Source: an uncultured Prevotellaceae bacterium (GTDB lineage: Bacteria; Bacteroidota; Bacteroidia; Bacteroidales; Muribaculaceae). From it: 64,000 nt of DNA. Positions 10,117 through 33,987 of this stretch are shown here, one piece after another. The translations under genes and the position numbers were made by a program. Each line of letters opens with the position of its first letter. Position 1 is the stretch's first letter. The DNA is taken from contig ONJS01000007.1 in assembly GCA_900318205.1 (NCBI GenBank), forward strand, positions 1-64,000, written 5' to 3'. Below the pieces are notes generated by a model, which made no database searches, was not told the origin of the DNA, and saw only the letters and a list, made by a program, of their open reading frames with translations.

Positions 10117-10755
10117 GTGAAAGAAGAAGCCAACATATACAATATTACATTTACTGCAGGATCTGCAATGCTCAATCAGATGCATGCTGTAGCAGAAACT
10201 TTCCTGGATTGTAATGGGGATTGGCAACGCACAAAGGCTAGAACCCTCAAAGAGAATCTGATGCAACAGGAAAAGATGTCTTCCAATCTTAGATATTTTA
10301 CTTTGATTAAGCAACGCTTAGAGGTATTGAACGCAGAAGAACTCAATATGCTCGTCAATGGAACTGTAGCCGTTCGCCGTTTGATTGTATTACTAGCAAT
10401 TTGCAAAGCACATTCTTTTATTTTTGACTTCATAGCAGAGAATGTTCGTGAGTGTTTCTATAATCAATACGAGAAGGTGACACACGCCAACTTCAATGAA
10501 TTCTACAACGAGAAAAAGTATGAGCATCCCGAGTTGGAGCAGGCCACAGAAAACACGGTTTATAAAATGCGCCAGGTCACCTTCCTCATCTTGGAGCAAA
10601 CAGAGTTGATTGAAGATGTAGGTTCCGGTATTATTCGCCGTCCTTATCTTTCTGAAGCCATGGAGCAACTTGTCGTAAAAGACGATCCTAAATGGCTTGC
10701 TATCTATCTCTATTCCGATAATGAAATAAGTAATCTCAGAGACCTCTATGCATAA
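10117..10755 (+). CDS. brxA: BrxA, BREX type I protein (DUF1819), 212 aa
   Basis: This is the first gene of a canonical type I BREX operon. The N-terminal FTAGSAMLNQMHAVAETFL and the downstream helical blocks are typical of the DUF1819/BrxA family, a small DNA-binding helical protein. The start is GTG at 10117; no better ATG precedes the conserved FTAGS block. The gene overlaps brxB by eight bases. In studied type I systems BrxA is among the less critical components for defence and methylation. Identity rests on the sequence blocks and on the order of all six genes. Confidence 0.9.
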   Translation: MKEEANIYNITFTAGSAMLNQMHAVAETFLDCNGDWQRTKARTLKENLMQQEKMSSNLRYFTLIKQRLEVLNAEELNMLVNGTVAVRRLIVLLAICKAHSFIFDFIAENVRECFYNQYEKVTHANFNEFYNEKKYEHPELEQATENTVYKMRQVTFLILEQTELIEDVGSGIIRRPYLSEAMEQLVVKDDPKWLAIYLYSDNEISNLRDLYA

Positions 10756-11329
10756 CCAGATGATTGATTTAGATACCCTTTTCGAGGGTATATATAACAA
10801 ACTTATATCACCCGAGTTCGGAAAGAACATTGGTGGTGAACTCCCGCTGTTCGTCCAGCCTGTGCCTTCGGAACTACAGACGGATGTGGAAAGTCAGATA
10901 AAACGACTTTCTACCCGACTTCAAAAGAAGGGAATTGTATCTGTGTCCATCAATCTCTATGACCTTTGCATGGAAATCCTTCGTGAGGCAGATGTACTTG
11001 ATACCATTTTGGAACAAGAGCAGGAAATAAAGCGTGAGGACATCATTTCAACGCTCGACAGTGTGCTTGATATCAAGTCAGTCATCATTCCTCGAATCAA
11101 GGAGGCAATCTTGGAGACCCACCCACAATATGTTTTTATCAGTGGCGTTGGCAATGTCTATCCTTTCGTACGCTCGCATGGAATTCTGAACAATATCGAC
11201 GAACTGACAGGCGAATGCAACCTTATTTTGTTCTTTCCTGGAGAGTACAATAATCTTCAGCTTAAACTCTTTGGAAGTATTTCTGATGAGAACTATTATC
11301 GCGGTCATAATCTTAATGAATTTAGCTAA
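10748..11329 (+). CDS. brxB: BrxB, BREX type I protein (DUF1788), 193 aa
   Basis: The protein matches the DUF1788/BrxB family in length and in its C-terminal blocks: VFISGVGNVYPFVRSH, LILFFPGEY, then LKLFG and YYRGHNL. BrxB is needed for BREX DNA methylation and phage exclusion in model systems and is thought to be part of the core complex with BrxC, PglX and PglZ. The start is ATG at 10748, inside the end of brxA, or ATG at 10760. The brxC start lies within 20 bases of its stop or overlaps it. Confidence 0.9.
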   Translation: MHNQMIDLDTLFEGIYNKLISPEFGKNIGGELPLFVQPVPSELQTDVESQIKRLSTRLQKKGIVSVSINLYDLCMEILREADVLDTILEQEQEIKREDIISTLDSVLDIKSVIIPRIKEAILETHPQYVFISGVGNVYPFVRSHGILNNIDELTGECNLILFFPGEYNNLQLKLFGSISDENYYRGHNLNEFS

Positions 11330-11348
11330 TAACAAAAATATTTACGAT

Positions 11349-14300
11349 ATGATACAACAAGATATTTATTCAAAAGACATCACTCGCGAAATCAATGGTG
11401 TCATCAAGGCCGATAGTAAGCTTGAACTTGAGAAAGAGGTTACTGAATACGTGATTACAGCCGAGCAGATGCAGCCGAGACTTCTGCCTGCATTGTTTAA
11501 AACGCTTGTTCCTCCCGCAAAGCCAACCTGTGTATGGATTTCAGGCGACTTCGGTAGCGGCAAATCACATCTATTGAAAATCCTTTCATACGTTCTTGAA
11601 AACGAACTTGTGGTTAATAATCGCAAGTGTGCAGACATCTTTGCAGACAAAGCAAGCGAAGACTTTGAATTGAAAGGAGACATCCAGAAAGCATGCCGTG
11701 TTCCTACAGAAAGCGTATTGTTCAACATTCAAGAGAAACTTGATGGTATCGGAAAGAGTCATATAGATCCGGTGCTTAATATCTTCTTGAAAGAGTTTAA
11801 CCGTAAACTTGGATTTGATGATAAGAAGCCTGAGATTGCTGAGATTGAAAGGTATTTTGCCAAGAAAGGAAAGTATGAATGGTTGAAATCTGAATATAAG
11901 GCACGTTTTGGCAGGGAATGGATAGAAGACCGACCTACCATTCTATTGAAAAAACAGAACTTGGCCGAGTTGCTTGCTGACCTTGATGGTACAAGCATTG
12001 ATGTAGCACTCAACAACGTCACGACCCAAATTAACAAATACACGCTTGACATTGATGGATTCGTGGCTCTGATCAAAGCTCATTTGGATCAACAAATCCC
12101 TGGCAGTCGTTTCATATTCTTTGTAGACGAAGTAGGCCAGTTCATTGGCAAGGACGTTCATCGTATGCTCAGCCTTCAGACCATTGCTGAAGGACTAATA
12201 GATAAAACAGATGGACGAGCATCCATCTTCGTAACATCTCAAATGGACATTGATGCAACACTTGGCAATTTGGAGAAGCAACAAGAATATGACTTCTCTC
12301 GTATTCAAGGACGTTTCACTACCCGTATCAACCTAACTAGTGCTAACGCGGACGAAGTGATTCAGCGTCGTCTTTTGGAGAAAAAATCAGAGCCCCAGCA
12401 ACAACTCTGTATGGTCTATGATGATCAAAAGAATATAATCAAAAGCCTTTTTAATTTTGGTGATAATAGCCAGTTTAAGAGTTCTTATAAATCAGATGCC
12501 CAATTTGCCATCGACTTTCCTTTCGTTGATTATCAGTTTGACTTACTTCAACGTTGTATTATTGAGCTTAGCAAGAATAATGCTTTCAGCGGCAGACAAC
12601 AGTCTGTGGGTGAGCGTTCCTTGTTGACCATCACTCAGGAGGTTGCGAAGGCATACAAGGATAAGGATTTGAACCAAATTGTTCAGTTCTGTGACATGTA
12701 TGAAGGTATTCGTGGTATCCTCCAGACAAAAATACAAACAGACATACAGCAGGCAGAAAAAACTCTTGATGACGATATGGCATTAAAAGTGTTAAAAGCC
12801 CTTTTCCTTGTCAAATATGTCAAGGGATTCCCTTCAACTGTTGACAATATCACAAAAATAATGCTTCCGACTCTTGATACAGACTTTCCGGAGTATAAGA
12901 GTAAAATACAGGAAGCGCTCAACAAGCTCGTTTATACTTCATATATAGAGAAAGGCGCCAATGATGAATATCACTATCAAACCAATGAAGAGAAAGACAT
13001 TGAGACAGAGATAAAAAATGAGGATCTTCAACCTGATGCCATCAATAATGAGATGAAGAAGATTTTCCGAGATGAGATATTCTCTGATAGCAAGATCAAG
13101 CTTTCCAACTTTAAGATATTCCCGTATGGGCGTATTGTTGATGAGCAAAAAGATGGTCGTGATGCAGAAATGTATATCCACTTCATTACGCCGTTAAATG
13201 GCTTAACGAGCACAGATGTCAGTTCAATGAATATGTACTCGTTACAACATCCAAATCAACTCTGCATTGTTCTTGGGGAAGACAAGTATCTGGCAGAAGA
13301 TATTTCTATGTTCAAGAAAGCCGATAAGTGCCTAACCCGTCTTCTTTCTGTAGGATCTGATGGGTATCGTCAGCAAATCGTTACAGATAAACGTCGTGTG
13401 AACACACGACGTCGTGAAAGCATTGTCAACAGATTGACAGACCTTACAAAAAATGCTCGTCTATTCATGGCTGGTCAAGAGATTACAGATATTCGCCAGA
13501 CAGATTTGCGTGGCCGTTTAAACGAAGGGATGGCAAGACTTGTCGAACAGGTTTACACCAACTTGAAGATGCTTACTGTCGAATACGATGATGCTATGTT
13601 AAAAACAATCATCAACAGTACAGAAAATGCAGCGATCTTTGGAGAAGAAATGGACAACTGCTCACAGGAAATATTCAACAAAATCAACAATAATAAGCAG
13701 CTTAGTATACGTACAAAGGTGAAAGATCTTGTTGACTATTTTCGTGGCAATTCATATGGATGGTATGAGACGGCTACGCTCTGTTTACTTGCAAAGTTGT
13801 ACAAGATGGATAGAATTTCTTTCCGTTCAAATGGCAGTCCCGTAGCAGACCGTGACCTGTACAATAATATGACAAATAGTAACCTCCAAGCTGTGCTTAT
13901 AGTCGATATTGAGGAAACTATTACCACTTCACAGGTAGCAATATTAAAGAATTTATATAGAGAATTCTTTAGTGATGAAAGCTGTTCGGCTCAGAGTGCA
14001 AAGGACGTTCATCAGCAGTTTATTAACCGTCTGAAAGACGAGATCACAGTACTTCGCAGTGTGAGAGATCAAAACGATTTTGAGTTCACTAAACCACTTG
14101 AAGAGATAATTCCTCAATTCCAGCAAATTGCAAATAGTGTCTATCCTGCGCTTTACAGGATGACTTCAAATATTGAAGAGGCTATCGATCGCAAGATGGA
14201 AGAGGCTGATGTTATAAGTGAGTTCGTCAATGGCAGCCAATACAATATTTTTAAGCGAATCGAGACCACCAAAAAAGGTAATCAGGCGAACCTCGTCTAT

Positions 14301-14876
14301 GTAACACCGAACCTAATACAAATCCTAGATGAGATTTACGCATCGAGAACCCCATGGGACCAGATGACGAAAGCAAAGGACACATTGGACACCATTTATA
14401 ATGAGATCTCAGATAGGCAAAAAGAAGAGCGGCAGAAAGCGATTAATAACATAAAAAGCAAATTGGATGCCCTGAAGGCTCTTCCGGCTTTCTCCACATT
14501 AACGCAATCACAACAGAGCCAAGTTGATGCCATATTTACTGTGTTGACGGCAAATGCCAAGGAGGAACGTTATATCGGCAATTTGATTGCAATGAGCGGT
14601 AATATTACCGAAGCATACGAACGTTGTATCAAGTCCATCAACGAATGGGTTGAGTCTGCCGAGGCTGAGCACAAACGTCAAGAAGAAAAAAAAGGCACTC
14701 CTGCAGTCACACCTCATCGTCCAGTTAAGACATATATCAACAAGAGTAGCGCTATGAACGTGAGCTTCACTAAAAATGTTCTAGAAACACCAGAGGATGT
14801 AGAGGCATACATTGAAGCATTGAAGACTCGTTTGATGGATTTCATCATGCAGAATAAGAACATTATGTTAAACTGA
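11349..14876 (+). CDS. brxC: BrxC, BREX type I ATPase, about 1175 aa
   Basis: This is a large P-loop ATPase. The start is MIQQDIYSKDITREINGVIK, the usual BrxC opening. Walker A is GDFGSGKSH near residue 66 and Walker B is FFVDEVGQF near residue 258. Long helical and coiled regions follow, ending in IMQNKNIML. BrxC is the motor-like ATPase of the BREX complex and is needed for both methylation and defence. I prefer the ATG at 11349 because it sits just before the conserved block. An in-frame ATG at 11316 would overlap the end of brxB. The frame is intact throughout. Confidence 0.93.
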   Translation: MIQQDIYSKDITREINGVIKADSKLELEKEVTEYVITAEQMQPRLLPALFKTLVPPAKPTCVWISGDFGSGKSHLLKILSYVLENELVVNNRKCADIFADKASEDFELKGDIQKACRVPTESVLFNIQEKLDGIGKSHIDPVLNIFLKEFNRKLGFDDKKPEIAEIERYFAKKGKYEWLKSEYKARFGREWIEDRPTILLKKQNLAELLADLDGTSIDVALNNVTTQINKYTLDIDGFVALIKAHLDQQIPGSRFIFFVDEVGQFIGKDVHRMLSLQTIAEGLIDKTDGRASIFVTSQMDIDATLGNLEKQQEYDFSRIQGRFTTRINLTSANADEVIQRRLLEKKSEPQQQLCMVYDDQKNIIKSLFNFGDNSQFKSSYKSDAQFAIDFPFVDYQFDLLQRCIIELSKNNAFSGRQQSVGERSLLTITQEVAKAYKDKDLNQIVQFCDMYEGIRGILQTKIQTDIQQAEKTLDDDMALKVLKALFLVKYVKGFPSTVDNITKIMLPTLDTDFPEYKSKIQEALNKLVYTSYIEKGANDEYHYQTNEEKDIETEIKNEDLQPDAINNEMKKIFRDEIFSDSKIKLSNFKIFPYGRIVDEQKDGRDAEMYIHFITPLNGLTSTDVSSMNMYSLQHPNQLCIVLGEDKYLAEDISMFKKADKCLTRLLSVGSDGYRQQIVTDKRRVNTRRRESIVNRLTDLTKNARLFMAGQEITDIRQTDLRGRLNEGMARLVEQVYTNLKMLTVEYDDAMLKTIINSTENAAIFGEEMDNCSQEIFNKINNNKQLSIRTKVKDLVDYFRGNSYGWYETATLCLLAKLYKMDRISFRSNGSPVADRDLYNNMTNSNLQAVLIVDIEETITTSQVAILKNLYREFFSDESCSAQSAKDVHQQFINRLKDEITVLRSVRDQNDFEFTKPLEEIIPQFQQIANSVYPALYRMTSNIEEAIDRKMEEADVISEFVNGSQYNIFKRIETTKKGNQANLVYVTPNLIQILDEIYASRTPWDQMTKAKDTLDTIYNEISDRQKEERQKAINNIKSKLDALKALPAFSTLTQSQQSQVDAIFTVLTANAKEERYIGNLIAMSGNITEAYERCIKSINEWVESAEAEHKRQEEKKGTPAVTPHRPVKTYINKSSAMNVSFTKNVLETPEDVEAYIEALKTRLMDFIMQNKNIMLN

Positions 14877-14891
14877 TTAATATATTTGTAT

Positions 14892-17800
14892 ATGGCAACA
14901 AACACAGCGGCATTAAAGTCATTTGCACAAAAGACACGCGCAAAACTCATATCGCTTATCACAACCAAGCTTCAGTTTGTGCTCAACGCTGATACTGCAG
15001 AGCTTCGAGGTTATGAACGTCAGATTGATGAACTGAGACGCCAGGTTCACGACAAGACGGAGAAGATAGTGATTGAAGAAGTCGCCTACACATGGTTTAA
15101 CCGTGTGATGGCACTCCGTTTCATGGATGCCAACGGCTACAATGCACCTATGATTGTCACTCCTGCAGCAGGACAGGCTCGCCCTGAAATATTGCAGGAT
15201 GCAATGGCGGGGGTATTTGATGAGGAGCTATTGCTTACACCGGAAGAAAAACAACTCCCTGAAGCAAAGCTATATCGCAAGCTTCTTGTGGCTGTGTGCA
15301 ACAAAAAGATGTCTAAACCCATGCCGTTCTTGTTTGAACACATATCTGATTACACTGAACTTCTCTTGCCTGATGATTTGCTTTCCGATCAAAGTTTCAT
15401 CAATGACATTCGTATTGGCATGATAGACGAAGACTGCCAGAATGTTGAACTCATGGGATGGCTTTACCAGTTTTACATCACTGATCGCAAAGCGGATGCT
15501 GAGAGAAAAAAATCCAAGAAGGGTGGCCTAAAGAGTGATGAGCAGGCTGCTGCCACACAACTCTTTACGCCTCATTGGATAGTGCGCTATATGGTAGAGA
15601 ATAGTCTTGGCCGTATCTGGATGACGCTGCATCCGGAGAGCCATCTTGTGGATGACATGCCGTATTACATTGCAACACCAGAAGGCCAGACAGACATCAT
15701 TCCAGAAGACATACATTCCGCCAAGGACATACGCTTTCTCGACCCTTGTATGGGTAGCGGTCACATCCTCGTCTATGCCTTCGACTTGTTCTGTAAGATG
15801 TATGAGGAGGAGGGTGAGCAGGCAAAGGACATTCCTGCGCTCATCATCCAGAACAACCTCTATGGTATAGATATTGACCGTCGATGCTACCAGTTGGCCG
15901 CATTCGCCCTCACCATGAAGGCTCGTGCTTATTACCGCCGATACCTTCGCCATCCGGTCAGCCCTAACGTCATAGCGCTCGAAAAGATTGACCGTAACAC
16001 GATTGACTCTGCTGGCTCATGGGGAAAGAAGTCGCTGATGTGGCAGTTTGAGAATATCGACACGATTGGCTCGCTCCTGAAGGTGACGCCAGAAGAGTGT
16101 GCAGCCATTCGTGTGGAAAACAATAGTTTGTTTGGCGTTCGTCAGCAGGTGATGAAGACGCAAGCAGAATACCTGTCGAGGAAGTATCATTGTGTAGTAA
16201 CGAATCCGCCGTATTTAGGGAAAGGGATGGGAGATGTTTTAAAATCTTTTTTGTTATTAGAATATCCTAACGGCTCAGCTGATCTTATGGCTTCGTTTGT
16301 AGAAAGAAATCTGGACTATTCTGACAAAGATGCATATGTGGCTATGATAAATCAGCAGAGTTGGATGTATAATGTGACATATGAATCTTTAAGAAAAGAA
16401 ATCGTTAATAATAGCTTTATTTCAAGTGTACTACATTTAGGTCCTAGAACTTTTCCTGAAATAGGTGGTGAAAAAGTTCAAAATGTCACTTTTGTTTTAC
16501 GTAACGCATTGTCAAAAAGTAATGGGCTATATATACGACTGACAGATTATAATGACCCTTATTTGAAAGATAAGATGGCAAGGAAAATCATTCAAGAGCG
16601 AGAAAACAACTATTTTGTTTTCAATCAAGCTGACATTTTGGATATTCCTACAGCTATATTCGGATATTGGCTTTCTTCAACACAAAAGGAGATTCTGTCT
16701 AAATCAAATAGCTTTGATAACGTATCTTCACCGTGTACAGGAATGCAATCTGGTGCGAATAGTAAATTTGTGAGATTGTGGTTTGAAGTTTCAAAACGAG
16801 ATATTGATAATTATAAAGTTCCTTTTAAAAAAAAATGGTGCTATTATCAAATGGGTGGCGAATCGATTGCTTGGTATGACTATCTTCCTGCTCATGTAAT
16901 CTTATGGGAAAATGATGGTACGGAGGTTAAATCTCATAAAAGTTCTGTTATAAGAAATCAGAAATTTTATGGAAACCTTGGTATTAGTTGGAAAAGAATT
17001 TCTGGACCAGACAACAAATTAAAATTGCTCAAAAAGGGATATATATTTGATCAGGCAGCAGATACATTGTTCCCAAACGAAAACAAATACTTTAACTTTA
17101 TATTCGGGTTCCTTAATAGTAAGGTTTTAGGAGTGTTTCTAAAATTATTTAGCGCAACGCATAATTTAACATCAGGATCAATAGGTAGAGTTCCAATTTT
17201 CATGATTGATGATGAAGAGATAGACAAATTGGTTGATACATGTATATCAATAGCCAAAGATTATAGTGAGAGTTTGGAGTCTTCTGACTCTTTTATGTCA
17301 TTGAAATTTATTGATAGTGCGAGCGTTGAAGATCTTTGTGAAAGATACAAATGCTATTGGAATAATAGATTCATAACTCTCCACGACAATGAAATGCGAT
17401 TAAACGAAAAGTATATTATGATATATGGTTTGGGCAATGAGTTAGACTCGAATATATCTTTAGACGAAGTTACAATTCTTCAAAGAGGCGAGATCAGCAT
17501 TGAGGATAAGCGCATCGTTTGGCATGACGATGCCATCATCAAGCAGTTCATCAACTGGCTTGTGGGCTGCTTGATGGGGCGTTACTCTGCGGATAAGCCC
17601 GGGCTAATCATTGCCAGTCAAGGTCAGTCACTATCTGACCTTGACTTGCCAGCACATACCATTGAGATAGACGATGACGGCATCATTCCCGTTATTATGG
17701 AAGAGGACTTCTTCACCGATGATCTCACACAGCGCATAGAGGCTGCCGTGAAGACACTCTTCGGCGAGAAGAATTTCTACGATAACATGAAGTATATCAA

Positions 17801-18290
17801 GACAGCATTGGGTATGAACCTTCGTGACTACCTCTTTAAGAACTTCTACGCTGACCATCAGCAGATGTACTCCGCGAAGGGAGCCAAGCGTCCTATCTAC
17901 TGGCTCTTCAGCAGTGCGATGGGCGACAAGAAAAAGAAGGGCTACTTCAAGGCTCTTGTCTATATGCACCGTCTGGAGGCTGACACGTTGTCGAAACTCC
18001 ATGCCGACTATGTGCATCCATACCTCTCCAAGATTGAGCAGCAACTTGTCGAAGCTGAGGACAATGCTACACGTGATGACCTGTCATCGAAGCAAAAGAA
18101 GATTGCCCTCGACTTGGCCGAAACGCTCCGCGACAAGGTGCGCGAGGTGAAGGCATTCGAGACGCAACTGGTGGAGATGGCCAGTGCCCGCATCACCATT
18201 GACCTTGATGACGGAGTAAAAGCCAATTATCCGAAGTTCTATCCTCTCGTGGAGCCTATCAAGGGACTTGAAAGTAGCAATGACAATTAA
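14892..18290 (+). CDS. pglX: PglX, BREX type I adenine-specific DNA methyltransferase, about 1132 aa
   Basis: SAM-binding motif I is LDPCMGSGHIL near residue 283 and catalytic motif IV is NPPY near residue 438, as in gamma-type N6-adenine methyltransferases. PglX methylates host DNA at a short non-palindromic site and gives BREX its self/non-self signal. The ATG at 14892 is preferred over a TTG at 14886. Base composition changes inside the gene. From just after NPPY (about 16,200) to about 17,480 the sequence is much more AT-rich, while both flanks have more GC-rich third positions. That segment corresponds to the specificity region, suggesting a recombined target-recognition domain. Confidence 0.93.
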   Translation: MATNTAALKSFAQKTRAKLISLITTKLQFVLNADTAELRGYERQIDELRRQVHDKTEKIVIEEVAYTWFNRVMALRFMDANGYNAPMIVTPAAGQARPEILQDAMAGVFDEELLLTPEEKQLPEAKLYRKLLVAVCNKKMSKPMPFLFEHISDYTELLLPDDLLSDQSFINDIRIGMIDEDCQNVELMGWLYQFYITDRKADAERKKSKKGGLKSDEQAAATQLFTPHWIVRYMVENSLGRIWMTLHPESHLVDDMPYYIATPEGQTDIIPEDIHSAKDIRFLDPCMGSGHILVYAFDLFCKMYEEEGEQAKDIPALIIQNNLYGIDIDRRCYQLAAFALTMKARAYYRRYLRHPVSPNVIALEKIDRNTIDSAGSWGKKSLMWQFENIDTIGSLLKVTPEECAAIRVENNSLFGVRQQVMKTQAEYLSRKYHCVVTNPPYLGKGMGDVLKSFLLLEYPNGSADLMASFVERNLDYSDKDAYVAMINQQSWMYNVTYESLRKEIVNNSFISSVLHLGPRTFPEIGGEKVQNVTFVLRNALSKSNGLYIRLTDYNDPYLKDKMARKIIQERENNYFVFNQADILDIPTAIFGYWLSSTQKEILSKSNSFDNVSSPCTGMQSGANSKFVRLWFEVSKRDIDNYKVPFKKKWCYYQMGGESIAWYDYLPAHVILWENDGTEVKSHKSSVIRNQKFYGNLGISWKRISGPDNKLKLLKKGYIFDQAADTLFPNENKYFNFIFGFLNSKVLGVFLKLFSATHNLTSGSIGRVPIFMIDDEEIDKLVDTCISIAKDYSESLESSDSFMSLKFIDSASVEDLCERYKCYWNNRFITLHDNEMRLNEKYIMIYGLGNELDSNISLDEVTILQRGEISIEDKRIVWHDDAIIKQFINWLVGCLMGRYSADKPGLIIASQGQSLSDLDLPAHTIEIDDDGIIPVIMEEDFFTDDLTQRIEAAVKTLFGEKNFYDNMKYIKTALGMNLRDYLFKNFYADHQQMYSAKGAKRPIYWLFSSAMGDKKKKGYFKALVYMHRLEADTLSKLHADYVHPYLSKIEQQLVEAEDNATRDDLSSKQKKIALDLAETLRDKVREVKAFETQLVEMASARITIDLDDGVKANYPKFYPLVEPIKGLESSNDN

Positions 18291-18296
18291 TGGAGC

Positions 18297-20792
18297 ATGA
18301 CAGATTCAACACAGCAAAAGATACAACAGGTACTTAGCGATCTCATAGACCGCTACGGACGGGTGTTCTGGTATGATGAAGGCGGACAGATGCAACTGTT
18401 CGCCACATCTCTTGAACTCCCTGGCGTAGAGGTGCTGACCCTACAGAATAATGCATTCTCCCTAAAGTACCGCATACTGAAGGGAGAACAGCCTGAGCGT
18501 GGCTTTATCATCTATAGTCCAGAAGCAAAACCTGCTGACGATGACAACTGGCTTCTCGACTTACTGGTATCAGCAGCACCGTTCTCTGCCGACATGGGAT
18601 CACTGTATGCTGCTGAGTGTGGCATACCTCTGGAACTGAAGGAGAAGGTTGTGGACAAGCATCTCGAATTCTTCAAGACTGCACCAAACCGTAGCAAATT
18701 GACTGTTCGTCTGCATCCAGGCATGGATGTGATAGATATCGAGAAGCAGATGCAGGCTGTGGTATGTCGCACCGAGCCTAATTATGACCAGCTGTCCCTT
18801 TCTCTTATCCGCGAAACATACGAAGGAAAGACAGACATTCAAGATAAGTTGGAGAGATACAATCTGCTTGAATTGTATTGGGAAGATATAGATCAAGTAT
18901 TTGGCTACACTGGTCAGCATCATGTTAAAAACTTGCTAATTGTGTTATTCCAAGATGACATGAAGCGCAAGCTGGAAGGTAGCAAGCTTCGCAATGAAGC
19001 ACATATCTTCATGCGTGACTGGCGTGACAGTCGACAATATGGTGAACTCTATAAACAATGGGCGCAGCGTCTTGAAGATGAATTGCAAATCAAGAGCCAA
19101 ATTCAAGACTATAACATTGAGCAGCTTATTCAGATAGAAACATTCCCTTGTGTGGATAAGGTTATAGCTCAATATTTACAACTGGAGGTACATAATGGCA
19201 CTATGACCGTGGAAAAGATGGAATCTATAGTTGAAGAAAGAGAGCACAAGCTCTTTTTCCCCATTGCTATGCACACCATCAAGGCCCTTCTTGAAGCCCG
19301 CAGGTTGATCGAGGATGTTGACCAGAAAATGAAAGGCCTTATCATCAACACTGCAGAAGAAGGATTCCAGATGTACTGCAACGACCTTTATACCATAGAC
19401 CTCCACTATCGCCGCTACTTCACTGAAGAGAAAGTAGCGGAAAGTAAGAATCTTCTTGCGGACATCACAGAAATGGTGCAGCGCAAGTACACTAACGGTT
19501 TCTTGCTGGAACTGGCAAAGAAATGGCAGCCTATGGTGGATTCCATGGATAAGTGGCAGATTAAAGGTATCATTAATCAGTGTAACTTTTACGACAACTA
19601 TGTGAATCCATATGTGGAGAAGGGCAATAAACTCTTCGTCATCATCAGCGATGCTCTCCGATATGAGACCATGGTGGAGATGCAACAACGTATTAGTCGG
19701 TTAAACCGAATGGTGACAGACATGAAACCTGCAATGCTCTCCACACAGCCCTCCTATACTCAGTTAGGAATGGCAGCATTACTACCTAACCGACAACTCT
19801 CATATGAAAAACTGCAGGATGAGGTGTTTGCAGACGGACTAAGTACCAAGGGAACTGCAGCTCGACAGAAGGTGCTGGAACAGAGAGTGCTTAAAAGCCT
19901 TGCCATCTCTGCAAAGGATTTTCTAGAGATAACCACACCGAAAACTTACTTCAAGGACTATGACCTTATATATATTTACAGCAACAAAATAGATTTTGTC
20001 GGAGACAAGAGGGAAACAGAAGGCGAAGTCTTCAAAGCAACTGAAGAAGAATTTGACCATGTTATCAAAATGGTAGAACTAATCCGTAACGGAAATGGTT
20101 CTAACATCATCATCACTTCTGACCACGGCTACCTCTATCAGAATGAACAACTCGATGAGAGTGAATTTGTCGACTTCAAGGTAATGGGCGATATAATCAC
20201 AGACACACGGCGTTTCATCATCGGCAATAAACTGCAACCAGGTAATGCAGTTAAGACATGGAATAGCGAAGCCGTTGGGTTGAAGGCTGGTCGTCAGATT
20301 CAGATAGCAAAAGCTATGAACCGCATGCGCAAGCAAGGTAGCGGAAGTCACTTCGTTCATGGTGGCTCCATGCTTCAGGAGATTGTCGTGCCTGTTCTTC
20401 ATGTTAACATTAAGAAAGCTGCCGATGTCAGCCAAGTAGATGTGGATATTCTGAACAAGCGTGCAAAACTGACCACAAACAACCAGACCATCAGTTTCTA
20501 CCAGACAGAAGCTGTAAATGAAAAAGTGAAAGGCATTATTCTTCGCATAGGTTTTTATGATGCTCAGGACTCCCTCATATCAGACTCTATCAACATGGTA
20601 TTTGACAGTGAGAATACTGATAGTACACAACGCGAGAAGAAGCATATATTTGTATTCAAGAATCATCTATCAAAGTTAAATGGCCAAGAGGTAAGGCTGA
20701 AGATGGAACGTCAAATACCTAATACCGAACAATATGTTCTATATAAAGAAGAGTCATACAAGGTGAGCGTAATGTTTCAAGCAGAATGGTAA
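18297..20792 (+). CDS. pglZ: PglZ, BREX alkaline-phosphatase-superfamily protein, 831 aa
   Basis: The N-terminal 400 residues are typical BREX-1 PglZ sequence. The PglZ domain has FVIISDALRYE near residue 448 and IIITSDHGYLYQ near residue 604. These carry the Asp and His metal ligands of the alkaline phosphatase superfamily. PglZ is essential for BREX methylation and defence in model systems, though its substrate is not settled. It starts seven bases after pglX stops and is followed seven bases later by brxL, so it belongs to the same operon. The frame is intact. Confidence 0.93.
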   Translation: MTDSTQQKIQQVLSDLIDRYGRVFWYDEGGQMQLFATSLELPGVEVLTLQNNAFSLKYRILKGEQPERGFIIYSPEAKPADDDNWLLDLLVSAAPFSADMGSLYAAECGIPLELKEKVVDKHLEFFKTAPNRSKLTVRLHPGMDVIDIEKQMQAVVCRTEPNYDQLSLSLIRETYEGKTDIQDKLERYNLLELYWEDIDQVFGYTGQHHVKNLLIVLFQDDMKRKLEGSKLRNEAHIFMRDWRDSRQYGELYKQWAQRLEDELQIKSQIQDYNIEQLIQIETFPCVDKVIAQYLQLEVHNGTMTVEKMESIVEEREHKLFFPIAMHTIKALLEARRLIEDVDQKMKGLIINTAEEGFQMYCNDLYTIDLHYRRYFTEEKVAESKNLLADITEMVQRKYTNGFLLELAKKWQPMVDSMDKWQIKGIINQCNFYDNYVNPYVEKGNKLFVIISDALRYETMVEMQQRISRLNRMVTDMKPAMLSTQPSYTQLGMAALLPNRQLSYEKLQDEVFADGLSTKGTAARQKVLEQRVLKSLAISAKDFLEITTPKTYFKDYDLIYIYSNKIDFVGDKRETEGEVFKATEEEFDHVIKMVELIRNGNGSNIIITSDHGYLYQNEQLDESEFVDFKVMGDIITDTRRFIIGNKLQPGNAVKTWNSEAVGLKAGRQIQIAKAMNRMRKQGSGSHFVHGGSMLQEIVVPVLHVNIKKAADVSQVDVDILNKRAKLTTNNQTISFYQTEAVNEKVKGIILRIGFYDAQDSLISDSINMVFDSENTDSTQREKKHIFVFKNHLSKLNGQEVRLKMERQIPNTEQYVLYKEESYKVSVMFQAEW

Positions 20793-20804
20793 AGCTTAAT
20801 GATT

Positions 20805-21035
20805 ATGAATGAATTAGATAAAAAATTAAATGAATACTATGGTGGGAAAGTAGTGCGTAAAGATCTCACCAAAAGTATCAAAGAGGGCGCCAACGTGCCA
20901 AGTTACGTGCTAGAGTACCTTCTTGGTATGTATTGCGCTACGGACGATGAGGAAAATATTGAGAATGGCAAAACGATGGTAAAGCATGTCCTTGCTGACA
21001 ATTTTGTGCGTCCAGATGAAGATGAAAAAGATTAA
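20805..21035 (+). CDS. brxL: BrxL fragment 1 (N-terminal 76 residues)
   Basis: This frame holds the extreme N-terminus of BrxL and ends RPDEDEKD at TAA 21033-21035, after the A5 run shifts the frame. An in-frame ATG at 20799 is an alternative start. On its own it lacks any catalytic part. Confidence 0.7.
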   Translation: MNELDKKLNEYYGGKVVRKDLTKSIKEGANVPSYVLEYLLGMYCATDDEENIENGKTMVKHVLADNFVRPDEDEKD

Positions 21036-21429
21036 ATCCAAGATTCGTGAACGCGGCCATTACAAAATTATTGACAAGGTATCTGCAAAACTCAATGAAC
21101 GAACAGATAGTTATGAAGGGCAAATTTTTAACATCAATATTAACCATATTCACATCAATGATACCTATGTAAAGAATTATGAAAAGTTGCTATGTGGCGG
21201 CATCTGGTGTATCATTGATATGGAATACAATTACGATGAAAACACAAGGGCCACTCCATTCCAGATTCTTTCATTGAAACCAATTCAAATGCCAGCAACA
21301 GACATTGAGGAATACATGGAGGGGCGTAAACATTTTACACTGGATGAATGGATTGAAGTTATTTGCCGCAGTGTGGGTATGGAACCAACAAATCTTGATG
21401 AAAAGACCCGTTGGCATTTGGTCGCTTGA
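21016..21429 (+). CDS. brxL: BrxL fragment 2 (middle of the N-terminal region)
   Basis: This frame continues BrxL from IKSKIRERG through YEKLLCGGIWCI and MEPTNLDEKTRWHLVA to the TGA at 21427. An ATG at 21016 overlaps the end of fragment 1 and could start it, which would add MKMKK to the natural sequence. Confidence 0.65.
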   Translation: MKMKKIKSKIRERGHYKIIDKVSAKLNERTDSYEGQIFNININHIHINDTYVKNYEKLLCGGIWCIIDMEYNYDENTRATPFQILSLKPIQMPATDIEEYMEGRKHFTLDEWIEVICRSVGMEPTNLDEKTRWHLVA

Positions 21430-22833
21430 ATGATACCATTCGTAGAGAACAACTATAATATTTGTGAACTAGGCCCTCGTGGAACAGGTAAGTCTTACGT
21501 TTACGATGAGCTGTCTCCATACTCCATATTAATATCTGGAGGACAAACAACAGTAGCCAATCTCTTTTATAATATGGGGCACCACACAGTTGGCCTTGTC
21601 GGCATCTGGGATGTCATAGCTTTTGATGAAGTTGCTGGAATCAATTTGAAAGACAAGGACGGTATCCAGATCATGAAAGGCTATATGGCTAATGGTTCTT
21701 TCAGCCGTGGTAAGGAAAGCATCAATGCAAATGCTTCAATGGTGTTTGTGGGTAATATTAACGGTAGCATAGAGAACCTTGTTAAGGTGAGTCACCTGCT
21801 TTCACCATTTCCAAAGGATATGATTGATACTGCATTTTTCGATCGATTCCATCACTATTTACCTGGATGGGAGATTCCTAAGATGAGACCTGAGTTCTTT
21901 ACTGATTCATTTGGTTTCATTTCTGACTATTTCTCTGAATGTATGCGGGAAATGAGAAAGCGGAGCTTTAGCGATGCCATTCAAAAGTATTTCCGTTTAG
22001 GTAAAGACCTCAATCAGCGAGATGTGATAGCTGTTAAGAAAACTGTCAGTGGCCTACTTAAACTGTTATTCCCAGATGGTAACTTCAACAAGGAAGATGT
22101 GCGTAAATGCTTGGAGTATGCTTTGATTGGTCGTAGACGCATAAAGGAACAGTTGAAGAAAATCGGTGGCCTGGAATTCTATGATGTGCATTTCAGCTAC
22201 ATAGACTTGGAAGATGGAGAGGAAAGATATGTGACTACACCAGAGAATGGCGGATCTGCTCTTATTCCAGAGGGTGACCTTCAGCCCGGATCTCTTTATG
22301 GAATAGCTCATCAACCCGGAGAAGGCAACCTTGGACTGTTGCGATTGGATTTGCAGGTAATGCCGGGCAATGGCAAATTTACACATACAGGTTTTGGTAG
22401 CGGTAGTGCTATCAGTGACGAATTGAAAGAAGCCGTGAATTATTGCCGCTCAAATTTGAGTCGAATTTCACAAAACGTTCATTTTGCCGATTTTGAATTA
22501 CATATGAAAGCAACGGATATAAATGGGATTGGAACATTACAAGGATTGGAACTAGGCGTATTTATATCCCTTGTGTCTGGTCTCACGGAACGATCTGTTC
22601 AATCTCAGATGTGTGTTCTCGGTTCGATGAGCATTGGCGGTACAATCATACCGACCAGCGACCTTCCTGGTGCTCTCCAAATAGCAGCTGATGCAGGAGC
22701 CAAACGCATTCTTATACCTGTTGCCGATATGATGCAATACTCTAAAGTCCCTTCAGATTTGATTTCGAAGTTTAGCCTAGAAGTATATTCCGACCCAGTA
22801 GATGCAGCCTTTAAGGCCTTGGGTATAAAGTAG
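21430..22833 (+). CDS. brxL: BrxL fragment 3 (AAA+ and Lon-like C-terminal part, 467 aa)
   Basis: It starts at the ATG directly after the TGA (TGAATG). It carries Walker A (GPRGTGKS) at residues 14-21, Walker B (AFDEVAG), and the C-terminal Lon-like region through GSMSIGGTIIPTSDLPGALQ. It is long enough to fold as an ATPase without the N-terminal DNA-binding part. Confidence 0.75.
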   Translation: MIPFVENNYNICELGPRGTGKSYVYDELSPYSILISGGQTTVANLFYNMGHHTVGLVGIWDVIAFDEVAGINLKDKDGIQIMKGYMANGSFSRGKESINANASMVFVGNINGSIENLVKVSHLLSPFPKDMIDTAFFDRFHHYLPGWEIPKMRPEFFTDSFGFISDYFSECMREMRKRSFSDAIQKYFRLGKDLNQRDVIAVKKTVSGLLKLLFPDGNFNKEDVRKCLEYALIGRRRIKEQLKKIGGLEFYDVHFSYIDLEDGEERYVTTPENGGSALIPEGDLQPGSLYGIAHQPGEGNLGLLRLDLQVMPGNGKFTHTGFGSGSAISDELKEAVNYCRSNLSRISQNVHFADFELHMKATDINGIGTLQGLELGVFISLVSGLTERSVQSQMCVLGSMSIGGTIIPTSDLPGALQIAADAGAKRILIPVADMMQYSKVPSDLISKFSLEVYSDPVDAAFKALGIK

Positions 22834-24846: not shown

Positions 24847-27800
24847 TCAAGAGAGTTCATGAACTATGGAATAAACAGGATAGAAAATGATGGCGTGGGT
24901 AACATCGAATCCAGCATCCTTAAGCGCAGCTACATAAGCAGACAATTGCGGGTAGTAGGACTTGGTATGCTCGTCAAGTTTGACGCCCTGGAATGTCTTA
25001 TAGTCCACAAGCACACAATGCTGCCCTGCTTCATCAGTATAATGCCACAACAAATCCATCTCGCCACGCAATGTACGGCCATCACGCAGTGTCATCATGA
25101 AAGGCAATTCTTGTTCGACCTTGTCTCCATCTTGCTGCGGAAATTTGGATTGCAAAGTGTCATATAGCCAGTCAGCCGACCGTATAATTGCATCGATGTG
25201 TCCTGCCAGTTGATTAGCCACACCATAGCCATTAATAACACTGATAGCCACTTGGTGGTTAAGTTCATCTTTGCCCTTTTGATAGGCGGCGAATATGTCA
25301 TGAATGCAGCTGCCGATGGTGGCATACTCACTGCCCCAACCTTTTGTGTCAATCGATATGCCATGTTCCAGCCACTTGGTATGAGCATTAAAGCCATCAA
25401 ACTCCTCCAACTTACTCGGGGACAAGTAACGAGTACCATATACGCTATGCGTTTGTGGCTTGTTCACAATCGTGTACTCAGGCTGTGTAGCCTTGACTGC
25501 ATCTTCGCTGGGCACATTAATCTCTTCAAGGTGATTCTCACAATCAGGAATGCCCCAAATGTGGTTCTTGTCAGGCGTATCAATACCAATATTGGCCAAC
25601 CAAGCAAAGCGATTATCTATGCCTAAAGAAATGATACAATCCTTTGCACGTGTCATCCCCACATAGAGGAGACGTGTTTCTTCACCTCGAGTGCGTTTTT
25701 CCAAAGAATCATAAATATCCAACTCCTTGATTTTATCAACCATTGGGTCTGCAGGCTTGGCATTGGCTCCCTTAATGATATTGGGGAAAAAGTGCAGGTA
25801 ATACTCCTTAGCAAACGGATCGTCACTCGAAGCATTATCATGAAGGACCATTTCACGAACTCTCATGAATTGTTTCTTGATAAGTTCGCTGCTATCAAGA
25901 CTGTCTGTATTGAGCTCATTGAGAATCACAACAGGCCATTCAAGACCTTTTGCGCCATGGTAAGTAAAGACTTTTACGGTGTCTGACTGATTATCACGTT
26001 CCTTGTCTGGCTCAATGCTGTTGAGATAATAGATAAAACCATTGATTGAGGAGCCCAGGCCCATCTGAACGCACATTTGGTCATAATCATCGGCCAAGTG
26101 CTGCACGGTCGAAAGGTTCTGATTGCGGATGATGCTATCACCCCACTTTGCTACAAGGGCTGGAAGATTGCACTCATAGATGAGTCCTCGGACAATCTCA
26201 GGGACAGAAAGATGCTTGAAGCGGTCTGCCATGTCTCGCAACAAAGCCACTTCATGATCATCTTCTTTCCAGTTATCTTTTGACGCATCAAATTCTTTGT
26301 CGTCGTTCCCATTGATAATGCTCAATACATAGTCAATGCGTTCACGTAAGATATCTACAGTGGTTTTTCCCCATAACAGTCTCATCAAGTCTGCAATGAC
26401 ATGTTTGCTATCCGGATTCTGGACAAATTGCAACAAAACGACAACGAGTTGCACCTCGATACGCTGCATGATGGCATCCTCGGACTCAGAAACGGGTATG
26501 TCAAACTTGCGCATGGCTTTAACGATGTCTTTGATAGTGTCATTCCTACGACAGAGGATAGCAATATCTTTGGGACGAATCATTGTTAGTGGCTCATCAA
26601 GAGTTCCACTATGAACCAGCATCTTGGAGTCAAGCAATTCTTTAACTCGCCATGCGATAGCCTCAGGTTTAGTCTTCTGCTGGTTCCCCTTTTTCGGGTT
26701 ATTCCAATGAACGATGGAATCATAATTTAATTGATTATCCTTAAAATGAGGGCTGAGTGTAATGCACAACGGATCTATCTCATCCTTAAATTTATCAGCA
26801 AAGACGCTATTGACGAGATTCACAAGGGATGGGCGTGATCGCCAGCTCTCAACTAACCTGCCCGAGCCCAATCTATCAGGTCCCTCCTCGCCATGGAAGT
26901 CAGCATCATTGTAGAAATGGAAATGTTTCGAGACTGAATTTACGAGATCAGTGTCCGCGCCACGAAAACCATAAATAGCCTGCTTGGGGTCACCAACCCA
27001 AAATGAATGGCCGTCGGTTCCAGCAATCAGTTCTGAAAGGCAATTGAATATCTTCAACTGGATAGGGTTGGAATCCTGGAACTCATCTACCATGACAAGC
27101 CGATAGTTCTCGCGGATATAATCCTGTACTTCTTTCTCTTTTGTGATGAGATGGAGGAAAAGTCGCTCCATATCATTGTAGGAAATGATGTGGTTGCGCT
27201 TTTTATAAGCAACATAGTCATCTCGCCATTCCTTGGCCAAATGAAAAATTGCCTGGATGAAAGGCTCCATTATATCAAGATCCGCCTTAGAGATTGAACT
27301 CTTTTCAAGAGTTTCCTTTAAGGCAGTAAAATGGACACATTCTTTTGCAAGAGCTCCTGGAGAACAAGGATCTTTAATAAGCGAGTTAACCTCATTTAGC
27401 CAATTACGATCGCGCTTTTGAGAAAGCAATTTTGTACCTATTTTTTCATGTTTATCAGCCTTATCCCCAGATTTCTTTGATTTTGATCTACAAAAGGCGC
27501 AGTACTCCTCCAATGCTTTAGCTACAAAATCATAATTAACCGGGGGGGCCACATAAATGGAACGTACATTTTCCAAGCTCCTGCTAATGCTTTCATCAAC
27601 ATCATTCACATCGTAGTATTCCATTTTTTCTACGATATCACGAAGGTGTCGTTGCCAAAATAGGAAATCTGGATGACTGTATGCATCGCTGATATCATAA
27701 TAGTCACGAAATTTGCGGAACGCTTCCAATTCTTTCTGTTTTTTCAAAACACCGTTATCGTCCCTCTCTCTGACTATCCTTGCCAAAGACTGATTCATAT

Positions 27801-28146
27801 AGAAGTCTTCGTCGCGTTCATTAATGGTTTGTATCTCCGCTCCATAGCCAAGCAGATACCAAAACTTCTTGATAAAACGAAGGGCAACAGAATGCACTGT
27901 ACCAATTGCAGCACTATCAATTTGAGCCGCGGCATCAAGGTTTCCTGCCTCAAGGAGTTTTTGCCTGGCTTTCTCACGAAACTCGGCTGCAGCAAGTTCG
28001 GTGAATGTAGTGAGAATGACTTGTGATGGTTTAATGAGAGAATTGCCATCACCATTTTTTTCAGCCAGTTTTTCTGAAAGAATGCGTGTCAGTGTGAATG
28101 TCTTTCCTGAACCGGCTCCTGCGTTGATATATGTAACGTTTTTCAT
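24847..28146 (-). CDS. AddA/RecB-like UvrD-family helicase-nuclease, 1099 aa
   Basis: Superfamily 1 helicase motifs are clear: NAGAGSGKTFTL at residues 8-19, MVDEFQDSNP near 350, WVGDPKQAIYGFRGAD, TYHGAKGLEWPVV, and LLYVGMTRAKD near 825. The C-terminus has a RecB-type nuclease domain: GSCIHDIF, GEMDLLW near 1030, and VLVDYKTF near 1047, giving the H, D and D-x-K residues. The architecture is that of AddA. It is coupled to the upstream nuclease gene by a TAATG overlap, as addB-addA pairs are. A house-keeping AddAB is possible. Placement inside the island and convergence on BREX suggest a defence-associated copy. Confidence 0.85.
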   Translation of the reverse strand: MKNVTYINAGAGSGKTFTLTRILSEKLAEKNGDGNSLIKPSQVILTTFTELAAAEFREKARQKLLEAGNLDAAAQIDSAAIGTVHSVALRFIKKFWYLLGYGAEIQTINERDEDFYMNQSLARIVRERDDNGVLKKQKELEAFRKFRDYYDISDAYSHPDFLFWQRHLRDIVEKMEYYDVNDVDESISRSLENVRSIYVAPPVNYDFVAKALEEYCAFCRSKSKKSGDKADKHEKIGTKLLSQKRDRNWLNEVNSLIKDPCSPGALAKECVHFTALKETLEKSSISKADLDIMEPFIQAIFHLAKEWRDDYVAYKKRNHIISYNDMERLFLHLITKEKEVQDYIRENYRLVMVDEFQDSNPIQLKIFNCLSELIAGTDGHSFWVGDPKQAIYGFRGADTDLVNSVSKHFHFYNDADFHGEEGPDRLGSGRLVESWRSRPSLVNLVNSVFADKFKDEIDPLCITLSPHFKDNQLNYDSIVHWNNPKKGNQQKTKPEAIAWRVKELLDSKMLVHSGTLDEPLTMIRPKDIAILCRRNDTIKDIVKAMRKFDIPVSESEDAIMQRIEVQLVVVLLQFVQNPDSKHVIADLMRLLWGKTTVDILRERIDYVLSIINGNDDKEFDASKDNWKEDDHEVALLRDMADRFKHLSVPEIVRGLIYECNLPALVAKWGDSIIRNQNLSTVQHLADDYDQMCVQMGLGSSINGFIYYLNSIEPDKERDNQSDTVKVFTYHGAKGLEWPVVILNELNTDSLDSSELIKKQFMRVREMVLHDNASSDDPFAKEYYLHFFPNIIKGANAKPADPMVDKIKELDIYDSLEKRTRGEETRLLYVGMTRAKDCIISLGIDNRFAWLANIGIDTPDKNHIWGIPDCENHLEEINVPSEDAVKATQPEYTIVNKPQTHSVYGTRYLSPSKLEEFDGFNAHTKWLEHGISIDTKGWGSEYATIGSCIHDIFAAYQKGKDELNHQVAISVINGYGVANQLAGHIDAIIRSADWLYDTLQSKFPQQDGDKVEQELPFMMTLRDGRTLRGEMDLLWHYTDEAGQHCVLVDYKTFQGVKLDEHTKSYYPQLSAYVAALKDAGFDVTHAIIFYPVYSIVHELS

Positions 28147-30905
28147 TATTTCAGTCTGCCTTTAAGAATTGGATGTGACGTAGCTACCTCAGATGGCTCG
28201 GAATCTTTTTTATCGAAAGTTTTCTTTTTGGTATTTTTGAAGACTTTCTCAGATTTCTTTATTGCGGACACAAGGGTTTTATTTGGTGCTTTGCCTTCGT
28301 ATTTCTCTTCAACATCAAGTGGGCAAAGGTTATTATCGCTTGTCATTGAATAGTAGTTGTCAGTGTCAGTAAACACATCCAACATTTCAGCCTCTTCGAT
28401 GTGCCCTCGTTTTAGTTCTTCCATCCTGAATTCATAAGAATTCTGAATTTGCTCAAAGAGGTCACTGCTGCTATTGGAATCAATACGTTTAATCAATCGT
28501 GATTTGGGAATTTCTTCAAAATCTGTGGTCAACAATTGATTCTTCGGCATCAAGTAATAAGCGACACCAGCGACATTTTTTCCGGGGTATGTTGCCAAAA
28601 CCGCTTGGCGATACAACTCCAACTGGATGGCCGTGTTGTTTTCCAAATATTCGCTATATTTCTTACTGTAACTCCATTTGAAATCAATAATAACAAAGCG
28701 GCCATCAGCCTGGGTGAGTAAGAAGTCTATACGAGCGCCAAAATCGCCAATAGTTCTCAGTTTGAGGTGCTTATTTTCTTCAGGGAAATATACCTCACAT
28801 CCAACTGGGCTCCATTGATTTTCCTTCATGATGTCAATAAGGGCAAGCATACTTCTCTTGAGTTGAACTTTAAACTCGATGAGCGTTGATGCACTTTCCT
28901 CAAGACGCATGAGTAGTCCAGTCGAATCAATAGCATCTTCAAGCCGTTGGTCAAATTCATCACACGTGAGTTTACGCATCTGCTCAATTTCTTTGTTGGC
29001 ATCCTCAATGACATGCTCAAAGAAATGGTGTGCGACAAGACCAGTAATAACATATAAACTCATAAGCTGTTCCTCGTCAGGCATTGGCAACCTTGCCACA
29101 TATTGCATCAAATAGTTGAACGGGAAGTTGATCAATGTATCAAGCGAAGTATTGCTCTCTTTGCGGCCTTGGTAGTCAATATCGCCCAATTCCAGTGCCT
29201 TGACTGGGCTGAAGCGATCAATGACATCATGGGTAGAAGTGGTCTCTATCATTTCGAAAAGATCGTTTGGCTTTGACGCCCTCAGTTTAATGCCCGCCTG
29301 CTTGAAAGCATAACGTACCTCAGCAATGAGCGGATGCTCGCCTAAACGAGTGGTGCCGTCAAATCTACTGCGAATCAGTATTACACAATCACAAGCATTT
29401 ATGATTCGGGCACACTCCGACCGGCACATTTGCAGATGCTTTGCAAAATCAGGCACAATACAACCCTTTGATTTCAAGTAGTTCCGTTCTGTTGAGCTCA
29501 GAAAGTCATAGGAATCCATTTCCTTATCATCTTCTTGACAATCAAGCCAGATTATAGTCTGGGCTTTCACTGCAAGCGACCTAATGTTTGAAATGACATT
29601 GTAGGAACCATTCTCGGCAGCCTGCAATGAGTAGTTCATTGGACGGTAAATCTGTAGGATTAACTTTTCAAGATCACTATAGCTCACCTTGTTGGGTAAC
29701 GGCTGCAGGGCGATATTTAGTGAATCAAGAAAAGTGATAAGTTGGTGCAATTGATCTTTTCGTGCTTGCGGAAGTTCATTATCGGCAAAATGTCCTGTTG
29801 CCCATGTTTTCAACATATCAATATAGGCTATGACATCGTTCTTTTCAATGCCACGGCTATAATCTGCACGTATGGGAGCCAAAAATGGCATTTTCTTAGT
29901 ACGGGCTTGAGAAGTGGGTTTACTCTCTTTGTTCAAGAACTCAAAAGATTCTATAATCTCTTCCCACTCATCACGCTCAACGCCTTTCTCACGCACTTTT
30001 TTTTCACCGAAACCGCATTGTGATATCAGTAATCGGGCAAGGCGCCTTCTTAATGCGCCAGGAATCGGAGACATGGGTAACATTAGATATGACACCAGGT
30101 TCTGTATGTTCAGTGGACGTGAGAAGATACTCATGCTAAGTTTGAACAGTTGCAACAGTTGAGGATTACTGTCTCTGAACGTTGAATGCAATTGTGGACG
30201 ATCCCAAGTGTACAGTGTGTGATTTAGCCTTACATTATTTCGGTTTATAACCGCGGTGCCTTCAGGAAGCATTTTAATTTGCGCAAACCACTCGTAAGCA
30301 TCATTGACATCATCAAACTCAATTAGTTTTATTCTGTCGATATTCCCGACATGAGGTTCTAAATCCTCGTTCACCGTCTTTGTGATTATTGTTCCCTTGC
30401 ATCCAATAGATAGCAGGGTCCGTTGAATGATGTGTGGAATCTCACTCCAGGGGCAGTCCACTTGAATCTCCTCAACACATCCATTCAGGTAGTTGGATTT
30501 ATCGTACACCTCGCTGATCCGTCGCCAACAATCCGCAAAGCCCATTGCCTTGAAATCTTTCTCTATACTTGAAAGCACATCAATCTTACGGGCATTGGGA
30601 TCATCACATTTTCCATCCCAACCTGCCATAATTAATGCATCGCGCCATTGCAGCAACTTCGCTGCCACCCCTAATGGATCCACATGGGCCGCCTGCTCAA
30701 AAACGGTACCAGGGATGTGATTCATCATCACCTTATGATACTCGGCCTCACGTTCAACATCGGATTTTGTTGCCAGGTGGATTCCTGCTCGCAGCTGCAG
30801 CTGATCGAGCAACCCCATATTGCCGACGTATGTGGTACCAATCACTTTAGGCGAATCACCAAGGTATGTGTCGCCATCATAGAAAGGACTATAGATTATC
30901 TTCAT
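28146..30905 (-). CDS. AddB-like protein with PD-(D/E)XK nuclease domain, 919 aa
   Basis: The long N-terminal region has no Walker A and looks like a degenerate helicase, as in AddB. The C-terminal nuclease has GARIDFLL near residue 722, FVIIDFKWSYSKKY near 738 (D-x-K), and a following QLELYRQA (Q-x-x-x-Y). Basic residues make up the tail. No obvious four-Cys iron-sulphur set was found, so it may lack that AddB feature. It would pair with the helicase encoded next to it to resect and cleave DNA ends. The two genes share a single base at the TAATG junction. A 273-aa gene of unknown function precedes it by 27 bases. Confidence 0.75.
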   Translation of the reverse strand: MKIIYSPFYDGDTYLGDSPKVIGTTYVGNMGLLDQLQLRAGIHLATKSDVEREAEYHKVMMNHIPGTVFEQAAHVDPLGVAAKLLQWRDALIMAGWDGKCDDPNARKIDVLSSIEKDFKAMGFADCWRRISEVYDKSNYLNGCVEEIQVDCPWSEIPHIIQRTLLSIGCKGTIITKTVNEDLEPHVGNIDRIKLIEFDDVNDAYEWFAQIKMLPEGTAVINRNNVRLNHTLYTWDRPQLHSTFRDSNPQLLQLFKLSMSIFSRPLNIQNLVSYLMLPMSPIPGALRRRLARLLISQCGFGEKKVREKGVERDEWEEIIESFEFLNKESKPTSQARTKKMPFLAPIRADYSRGIEKNDVIAYIDMLKTWATGHFADNELPQARKDQLHQLITFLDSLNIALQPLPNKVSYSDLEKLILQIYRPMNYSLQAAENGSYNVISNIRSLAVKAQTIIWLDCQEDDKEMDSYDFLSSTERNYLKSKGCIVPDFAKHLQMCRSECARIINACDCVILIRSRFDGTTRLGEHPLIAEVRYAFKQAGIKLRASKPNDLFEMIETTSTHDVIDRFSPVKALELGDIDYQGRKESNTSLDTLINFPFNYLMQYVARLPMPDEEQLMSLYVITGLVAHHFFEHVIEDANKEIEQMRKLTCDEFDQRLEDAIDSTGLLMRLEESASTLIEFKVQLKRSMLALIDIMKENQWSPVGCEVYFPEENKHLKLRTIGDFGARIDFLLTQADGRFVIIDFKWSYSKKYSEYLENNTAIQLELYRQAVLATYPGKNVAGVAYYLMPKNQLLTTDFEEIPKSRLIKRIDSNSSSDLFEQIQNSYEFRMEELKRGHIEEAEMLDVFTDTDNYYSMTSDNNLCPLDVEEKYEGKAPNKTLVSAIKKSEKVFKNTKKKTFDKKDSEPSEVATSHPILKGRLK

Positions 30906-33980: not shown

Positions 33981-33987
33981 AATGCTA

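Follow-up and report, generated by a model that had tools for sequence, protein, structure and literature searches.

The type I BREX operon on this 64,000-nucleotide stretch of DNA from an uncultured Prevotellaceae bacterium (hereafter the window) carries five open genes and a sixth, brxL, that is broken twice, by a one-base change of reading frame and by an in-frame stop codon. We consider it likely that the two breaks record a genuine loss of brxL in the recent past, after which the remaining five-gene cassette would be expected to methylate, and ordinary pseudogenisation or gene loss, rather than the emergence of a new system, is the most likely course of events. As we envisage it, brxL would have been inactivated very recently by a frame change of a single base and by a nonsense change, and the five open genes would be expected to keep the methyltransferase complex (BrxA, BrxB, BrxC, PglX, and PglZ) working. 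The full-length BrxL ring, which is thought to act on unmodified phage DNA, could then not be made, such that the cell would still methylate its BREX motif and exclusion would be lost or altered.

The BREX operon and its interrupted sixth gene

The operon occupies approximately positions 10117 to 22833 in the order brxA-brxB-brxC-pglX-pglZ-brxL (Table 1), and PADLOC BREX models match all six genes in this order. NCBIfam names BrxC, PglX, PglZ, and BrxL and gave no match for brxA or brxB, both of which are named by Pfam, in which BrxC is matched by two domain models only and PglX by general methylase models only. None of brxA, brxB, brxC, pglX, and pglZ has an internal stop, and each spans almost the full length of its best PADLOC model, thereby bearing out a sequence-only reading that had recognized six type I BREX genes in order, five of them intact. 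The true start of brxC is probably near 11349, the PADLOC match beginning at residue 27 of the open frame. Assignment to type I follows from PglX (NF033452) and PglZ type A (TIGR02687), both of which score above the NCBIfam cut-off, as does BrxC; the BrxL of such a system, expected in a single frame, is here present as a sixth gene that is broken. The operon was probably acquired horizontally, to judge from its scattered occurrence across the genus and from its nearest relatives, which are in other families.

Table 1. Genes, gene pieces, and sequence features of the BREX operon in the window
Feature	Position	Strand	Description
brxA	10117..10755	+	212 aa from GTG; Pfam BrxA 8.7e-39; PADLOC BrxA; no internal stop
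brxB	10748..11329	+	193 aa; Pfam BrxB 3.2e-37; PADLOC BrxB
brxC	11271..14876	+	open frame from TTG 11271; NCBIfam NF033441 896.5 bits; PADLOC
brxC motif and run			Walker A GDFGSGKS; A8 run at 14686, in frame
pglX	14886..18290	+	BREX-1 adenine methyltransferase; NCBIfam NF033452 1040.4 bits
pglX motif and run			NPPY motif; A9 run at 16827, in frame
pglZ type A	18297..20792	+	831 aa; TIGR02687 617.3 bits
brxL 5' piece	20805..21035	+	76 aa; matches BrxL residues 1-75; TIGR02653 positions 2-75
A5 run, reading frame change	21025..21029	+	shifted relative to all seven nearest relatives
brxL middle piece	21022..21429	+	next frame, ends in TGA; TIGR02653 positions 74-206
In-frame TGA	21427..21429	+	replaces Arg codon kept in 47/47 aligned relatives
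brxL 3' piece	21430..22833	+	467 aa; PF13337 positions 58-313 and Lon_C; TIGR02653 positions 209-674

That brxL is broken at these two sites had been read from the sequence, and the open frames, the DNA, and the alignment of relatives agree on it. The frame from ATG 20805 ends at the TAA of 21033-21035, and the middle piece lies one base over, in an open reading frame (ORF) of 20986-21429 with possible starts at ATG 20986, 21016, and 21022. Most of the AAA+ domain, including Walker A, and the Lon-like C-terminal domain fall in the 3' piece, and the three pieces together run through TIGR02653, a model of 675 positions. The further claim that the TGA stands where relatives have Arg also holds, in every aligned relative of an alignment of 48 rows, one of them a gap, from which three loci of under 300 aa were dropped beforehand. 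No second BrxL was found in the own genome with the 3' piece as query, the one other match being weak (26% identity, in an 854-aa frame that is presumably Lon).

Several neighboring features deserve mention in their own right. Within pglX, positions 16229-17451 have no DNA match to L003, a nearest relative of the operon, although both flanks match at 77-79%; the A9 run (16827-16835) lies inside this segment and is a candidate site for slippage or phase variation next to an exchanged specificity region. Adjoining the BREX operon on the minus strand (24847-30905) is an AddA/AddB-like pair, comprising a UvrD helicase with a PD-(D/E)XK domain and a PD-(D/E)XK partner. Among 100 other genomes of the genus, only four carry a near full-length relative of the AddA-like helicase, at 33-39% identity, and the pair looks accessory, perhaps representing another defense system. 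Farther along the same strand, a 640-aa AAA ATPase (42824-44746) matches the PADLOC IetA model at 5e-30. Its neighbors are a series of minus-strand ORFs (31990-42138), and of those tested the majority gave no Pfam or PHROG match. A BT4734-like (VirE-N/PrimPol-like) gene and a 637-aa neighbor, also on the minus strand (4699-7631), together suggest a mobile element beside BREX, the neighbor being patchily distributed (13 of 101 genomes of the genus, own included, at up to 95% identity over 438 residues). A final minus-strand ORF (47399-50536) encodes 1,045 aa, an unusual length for a tyrosine integrase; residues 31-107 give an arm-type DNA-binding match, and the integrase domain spans residues 273-442.

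Intact brxL in relatives and the age of the breaks

A contig search of genomes yielded 51 relative BREX loci, among which the 5', middle, and 3' parts of BrxL are all matched in 48, and in the same frame in each of these 48; L046, L049, and L052 match the 3' piece only. In 44 of the 51, the locus contains an unbroken frame no shorter than 640 aa, and the other seven either run into a contig end or are short or truncated: the frame of L004 (676 aa) reaches the contig end, L052 and L053 are cut by one, and that of L043 has 488 aa, with a match ending at 481. The match of L050 (4265-5212) stops at BrxL position 317, and in two Marinobacter salexigens loci, L046 (10001-11200) and L049 (2279-2974), the first 269 BrxL residues are unmatched. 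The BrxL proteins of the seven nearest relatives (L003 to L009) are all 675 aa long.

Whole genomes were searched with the intact L003 protein as query (E up to 1e-60), yielding BrxL matches in 14 of 397 genomes of a family sample and 14 of 393 of an order sample, the own genome included in each. Across both samples the own genome has the only match with an internal stop, in a search that reveals in-frame stops and to which a frameshift would appear merely as a shorter match; 3 of the 26 other matching genomes (G035, G399, and G433) are cut by a contig end. A broken brxL is rare among the sampled relatives, which counts against reading this one as a genuine loss.

Closer relatives were sought in several collections. 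No close BrxL was found in the genus (101 genomes, own included), where the best matches besides the own genome are in G008 (41% across 270 aa) and G035 (56% across 151 aa, cut off at a contig end). The IMG/VR search found no relative; among plasmids, 268 records had DNA matches, all at 60-80% identity and all spanning less than 80% of the query; and phage records returned seven matches, the best listed being 73.5% identical in protein across 61% of the query. As a test of genes travelling with BREX, the three ORFs downstream of the operon were compared with L003 to L009, and no match was listed. For a base rate, E. coli HS brxL was matched in 406 of 5,426 E. coli genomes; judged by span, 60 of the 406 rows taken at even steps comprise 46 with the full 2,085-base span in one piece, 5 covering 90-96%, and 9 remnants of 4-16%. 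These nine E. coli remnants are annotated as S16 family serine protease or peptidase.

The three brxL pieces (5', middle, and 3') share 93.2, 94.6, and 95.5% amino acid identity with L003 and 81-86% DNA identity, with dN near 0.03, dS saturated or undefined, and most dN/dS ratios undefined. Third codon positions hold 25 of 32, 54 of 63, and 233 of 268 of the differences, respectively, and this bias together with the low dN indicates that selection held on all three pieces until just before the breaks. On this evidence from substitution patterns, the breaks are either very young or errors. About 3.7% of random substitutions in an intact relative would give a nonsense codon, which makes it plausible, though not expected, that a second hit closely followed the first; two breaks with almost no further decay are slightly more than one recent hit predicts.

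Among 670 BrxL residues, there are five changes particular to the window at sites where all seven nearest relatives agree, and two particular to L003. A faster evolution of brxL in the own lineage was considered and dropped, the relative-rate count with L005 as outgroup giving 18 changes for the window against 11 for L003 (chi-square of 1.69); the same test on pglZ is even (54 against 47). The C-terminal part of brxC (54 against 21) and pglX (137 against 70) are faster on the window side with this outgroup, for which we have no explanation beyond a mosaic history or, in pglX, exchange; brxL is not the outlier among these genes. The window-only change at BrxL position 259 was likewise rejected as a third lesion, its column being variable (R 11, S 11, T 9, N 8, A 7, and Q 2).

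Alternative explanations for the breaks

The first alternative is that both breaks are errors in the deposited consensus of a draft, perhaps metagenome-assembled, genome, and that the brxL of the organism itself is intact. We regard this as improbable but deserving of scrutiny: the assembly is a draft of 53 contigs, 94.77% complete and 2.33% contaminated, the pieces show no decay beyond the two breaks, and relatives are mostly intact, both in 44 of the 51 loci and in the matches of the 26 other genomes, which are without internal stops. Evidence from elsewhere in the genome and operon, although indirect, argues against error. A set of 26 other long ORFs (78 kb), consisting of 19 SusC/ACR_tran-family ORFs (61 kb) and 7 ORFs of the window (17 kb) and chosen after the fact, is open throughout despite containing 95 runs of at least five equal bases, with the caveat that for one member, the AddB-like ORF, the model covers only part of its length. 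All 42 SusC-model matches and all 3 ACR_tran matches in the genome are without internal stop. Sixteen SusC matches pass the cut-off; 15 of these extend across almost the entire model, and the match of the remaining one, a 904-aa frame, begins at position 99. Longer homopolymers are in frame within the operon itself (A8 in brxC, A9 in pglX, and an A6 run at 20820 in brxL), and only one break alters a run length, the other being a substitution. Were breaks evenly spread over this ORF set, chosen as it was after the fact, both would fall in brxL by chance with a probability of about 0.0006.

Nested within the reading of genuine loss is the possibility that the loss was selected, BrxL being costly or toxic and its removal favored while the methyltransferase was kept. 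The high toxicity of BrxL alone in E. coli, as described in PMC6326788, and the open state of the other five BREX genes here are in keeping with such a history, which nonetheless strikes us as doubtful: the event is too young to show selection keeping the other five genes, and neutral loss fits equally well.

A functional split BrxL is unlikely. Under this explanation, two or three polypeptides would arise by start-stop coupling and reassemble in the ring, and the arrangement of the pieces offers some encouragement: jointly they cover nearly all residues save the lost Arg, and starts are available at both junctions, with ATG 21022 preceding the TAA of 21033-21035 and the TGA at 21427 touching ATG 21430. 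The sequence-only reading had proposed that this last ATG could restart translation of the AAA+ half. The ATG does adjoin the TGA and open a 467-aa ORF, but this ORF is not an intact AAA+ half because positions 1-57 of the Pfam BrxL ATPase model have no counterpart in it. Nor is the restart codon special, since the same Met codon occurs in all seven nearest relatives (and Met in 30 of 48 aligned relatives), which shows that the ATG predates the break. In an intact relative, 19 of 215 codons that are one step from a stop directly precede a start codon, and the adjacency of TGA and ATG thus needs no explanation.

The positions of the breaks also speak against a split protein. When they are placed by alignment to the solved BrxL of Acinetobacter (8emc), whose domain limits are given as approximately 1-146 and 170-469 (PMC10164562), neither coincides with a domain boundary. 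Break 1 interrupts the N-terminal domain, adjacent to the position equivalent to E79, a subunit contact in Acinetobacter, where, in the mutants described in PMC10164562, the E79 change alone was tolerated and only E280Q clearly reduced restriction. Break 2 lies inside the AAA+ domain, upstream of Walker A. A structure model of L003 BrxL (mean pLDDT of 70.9, with residues 218-359, below 50, left out) predicts that break 1 falls within helix 70-83 and break 2 just past helix 199-207. With breaks off the domain boundaries, an ordinary restart Met, and all 48 relatives that have the three parts in one frame with none split, the proposal of a split BrxL is weakly supported: reassembly of two or three polypeptides is very improbable, and a working three-piece BrxL coupled translationally at both junctions, which would make a split and possibly tunable effector, is marginally more so.

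A full-length BrxL produced by recoding, through a frameshift and a stop readthrough, is the least credible explanation, to which we give almost no weight: the pieces are conserved, but two separate events would be needed, 4 of the 17 ORFs of the window that were checked end normally in TGA, and the required shift is +1 (or -2), the wrong direction for programmed -1 frameshifting, which is ruled out. A-rich slippery sites give a -1 shift, and an A5 run is short for slippage.

Comparison with known systems and implications

This locus is best classed with systems already described, as a further type I BREX operon whose brxL has probably become a pseudogene. The type I system of E. coli HS has the same six genes in the same order, and both it and that of Acinetobacter sp. 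394 have, as here, a long BrxL with a Lon-like C-terminal part; unlike in those systems, brxL is here broken twice. The system of Acinetobacter sp. 394 also includes brxR (PMC9122589), which was not seen here. Our search of the open-licence literature found no paper mentioning BREX and brxL together with pseudogenes or with Bacteroidetes. Truncated brxL genes are described in Antarctic cyanobacterial metagenome-assembled genomes (PMC9716671), where pglX is truncated too, whereas here only brxL is affected, and incomplete or frameshifted BREX genes are described on Acinetobacter plasmids (PMC10117892).

Other parallels are laboratory mutants. The brxL deletions of E. coli and Acinetobacter (PMC6326788 and PMC9122589) likewise retain all methylation genes and have no BrxL, but they are deletions, while the breaks here are small, natural, and known from sequence alone. 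According to these accounts, brxL is dispensable for methylation both in E. coli (PMC6326788), which agrees with what the sequence-only reading had stated of that system, and in Acinetobacter (PMC9122589); in both it is needed for defense, which its loss ends or reduces. The gene is also described as dispensable for methylation in Salmonella (PMC9009780 and PMC11341690). In Salmonella strain D23580, deletion of brxL left defense intact or raised it against several phages (PMC11341690), so that even a real break might not produce the phenotype predicted here. In mutants of D23580 and LT2 (StySA), a 3' brxL remnant can be expressed (PMC11341690 and PMC9009780), and overexpression of a C-terminal BrxL fragment in StySA changed global transcription (PMC9009780); by analogy, translation of the 467-aa remnant here could yield a product that is not inert.

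Extended to this strain by analogy with these mutants, retention of methylation is probable, and loss of exclusion is likely but uncertain. The sequence-only reading is accordingly upheld in part: a type I BREX with a broken brxL is present, but a methylate-only phenotype is not implied by the break itself, as Salmonella D23580 illustrates (PMC11341690).

The locus carries a caution for surveys, in that gene-presence calls of a "complete BREX" can conceal a dead effector. If the breaks are real, this strain is a natural counterpart of the laboratory brxL deletions, in a lineage, probably Bacteroidota to judge from the nearest BREX relatives and the SusC copies, that lies outside the Proteobacteria, where the papers cited here studied BrxL. 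It would then be a test case both for the disputed role of BrxL and for the persistence of BREX as a methylation-only cassette.
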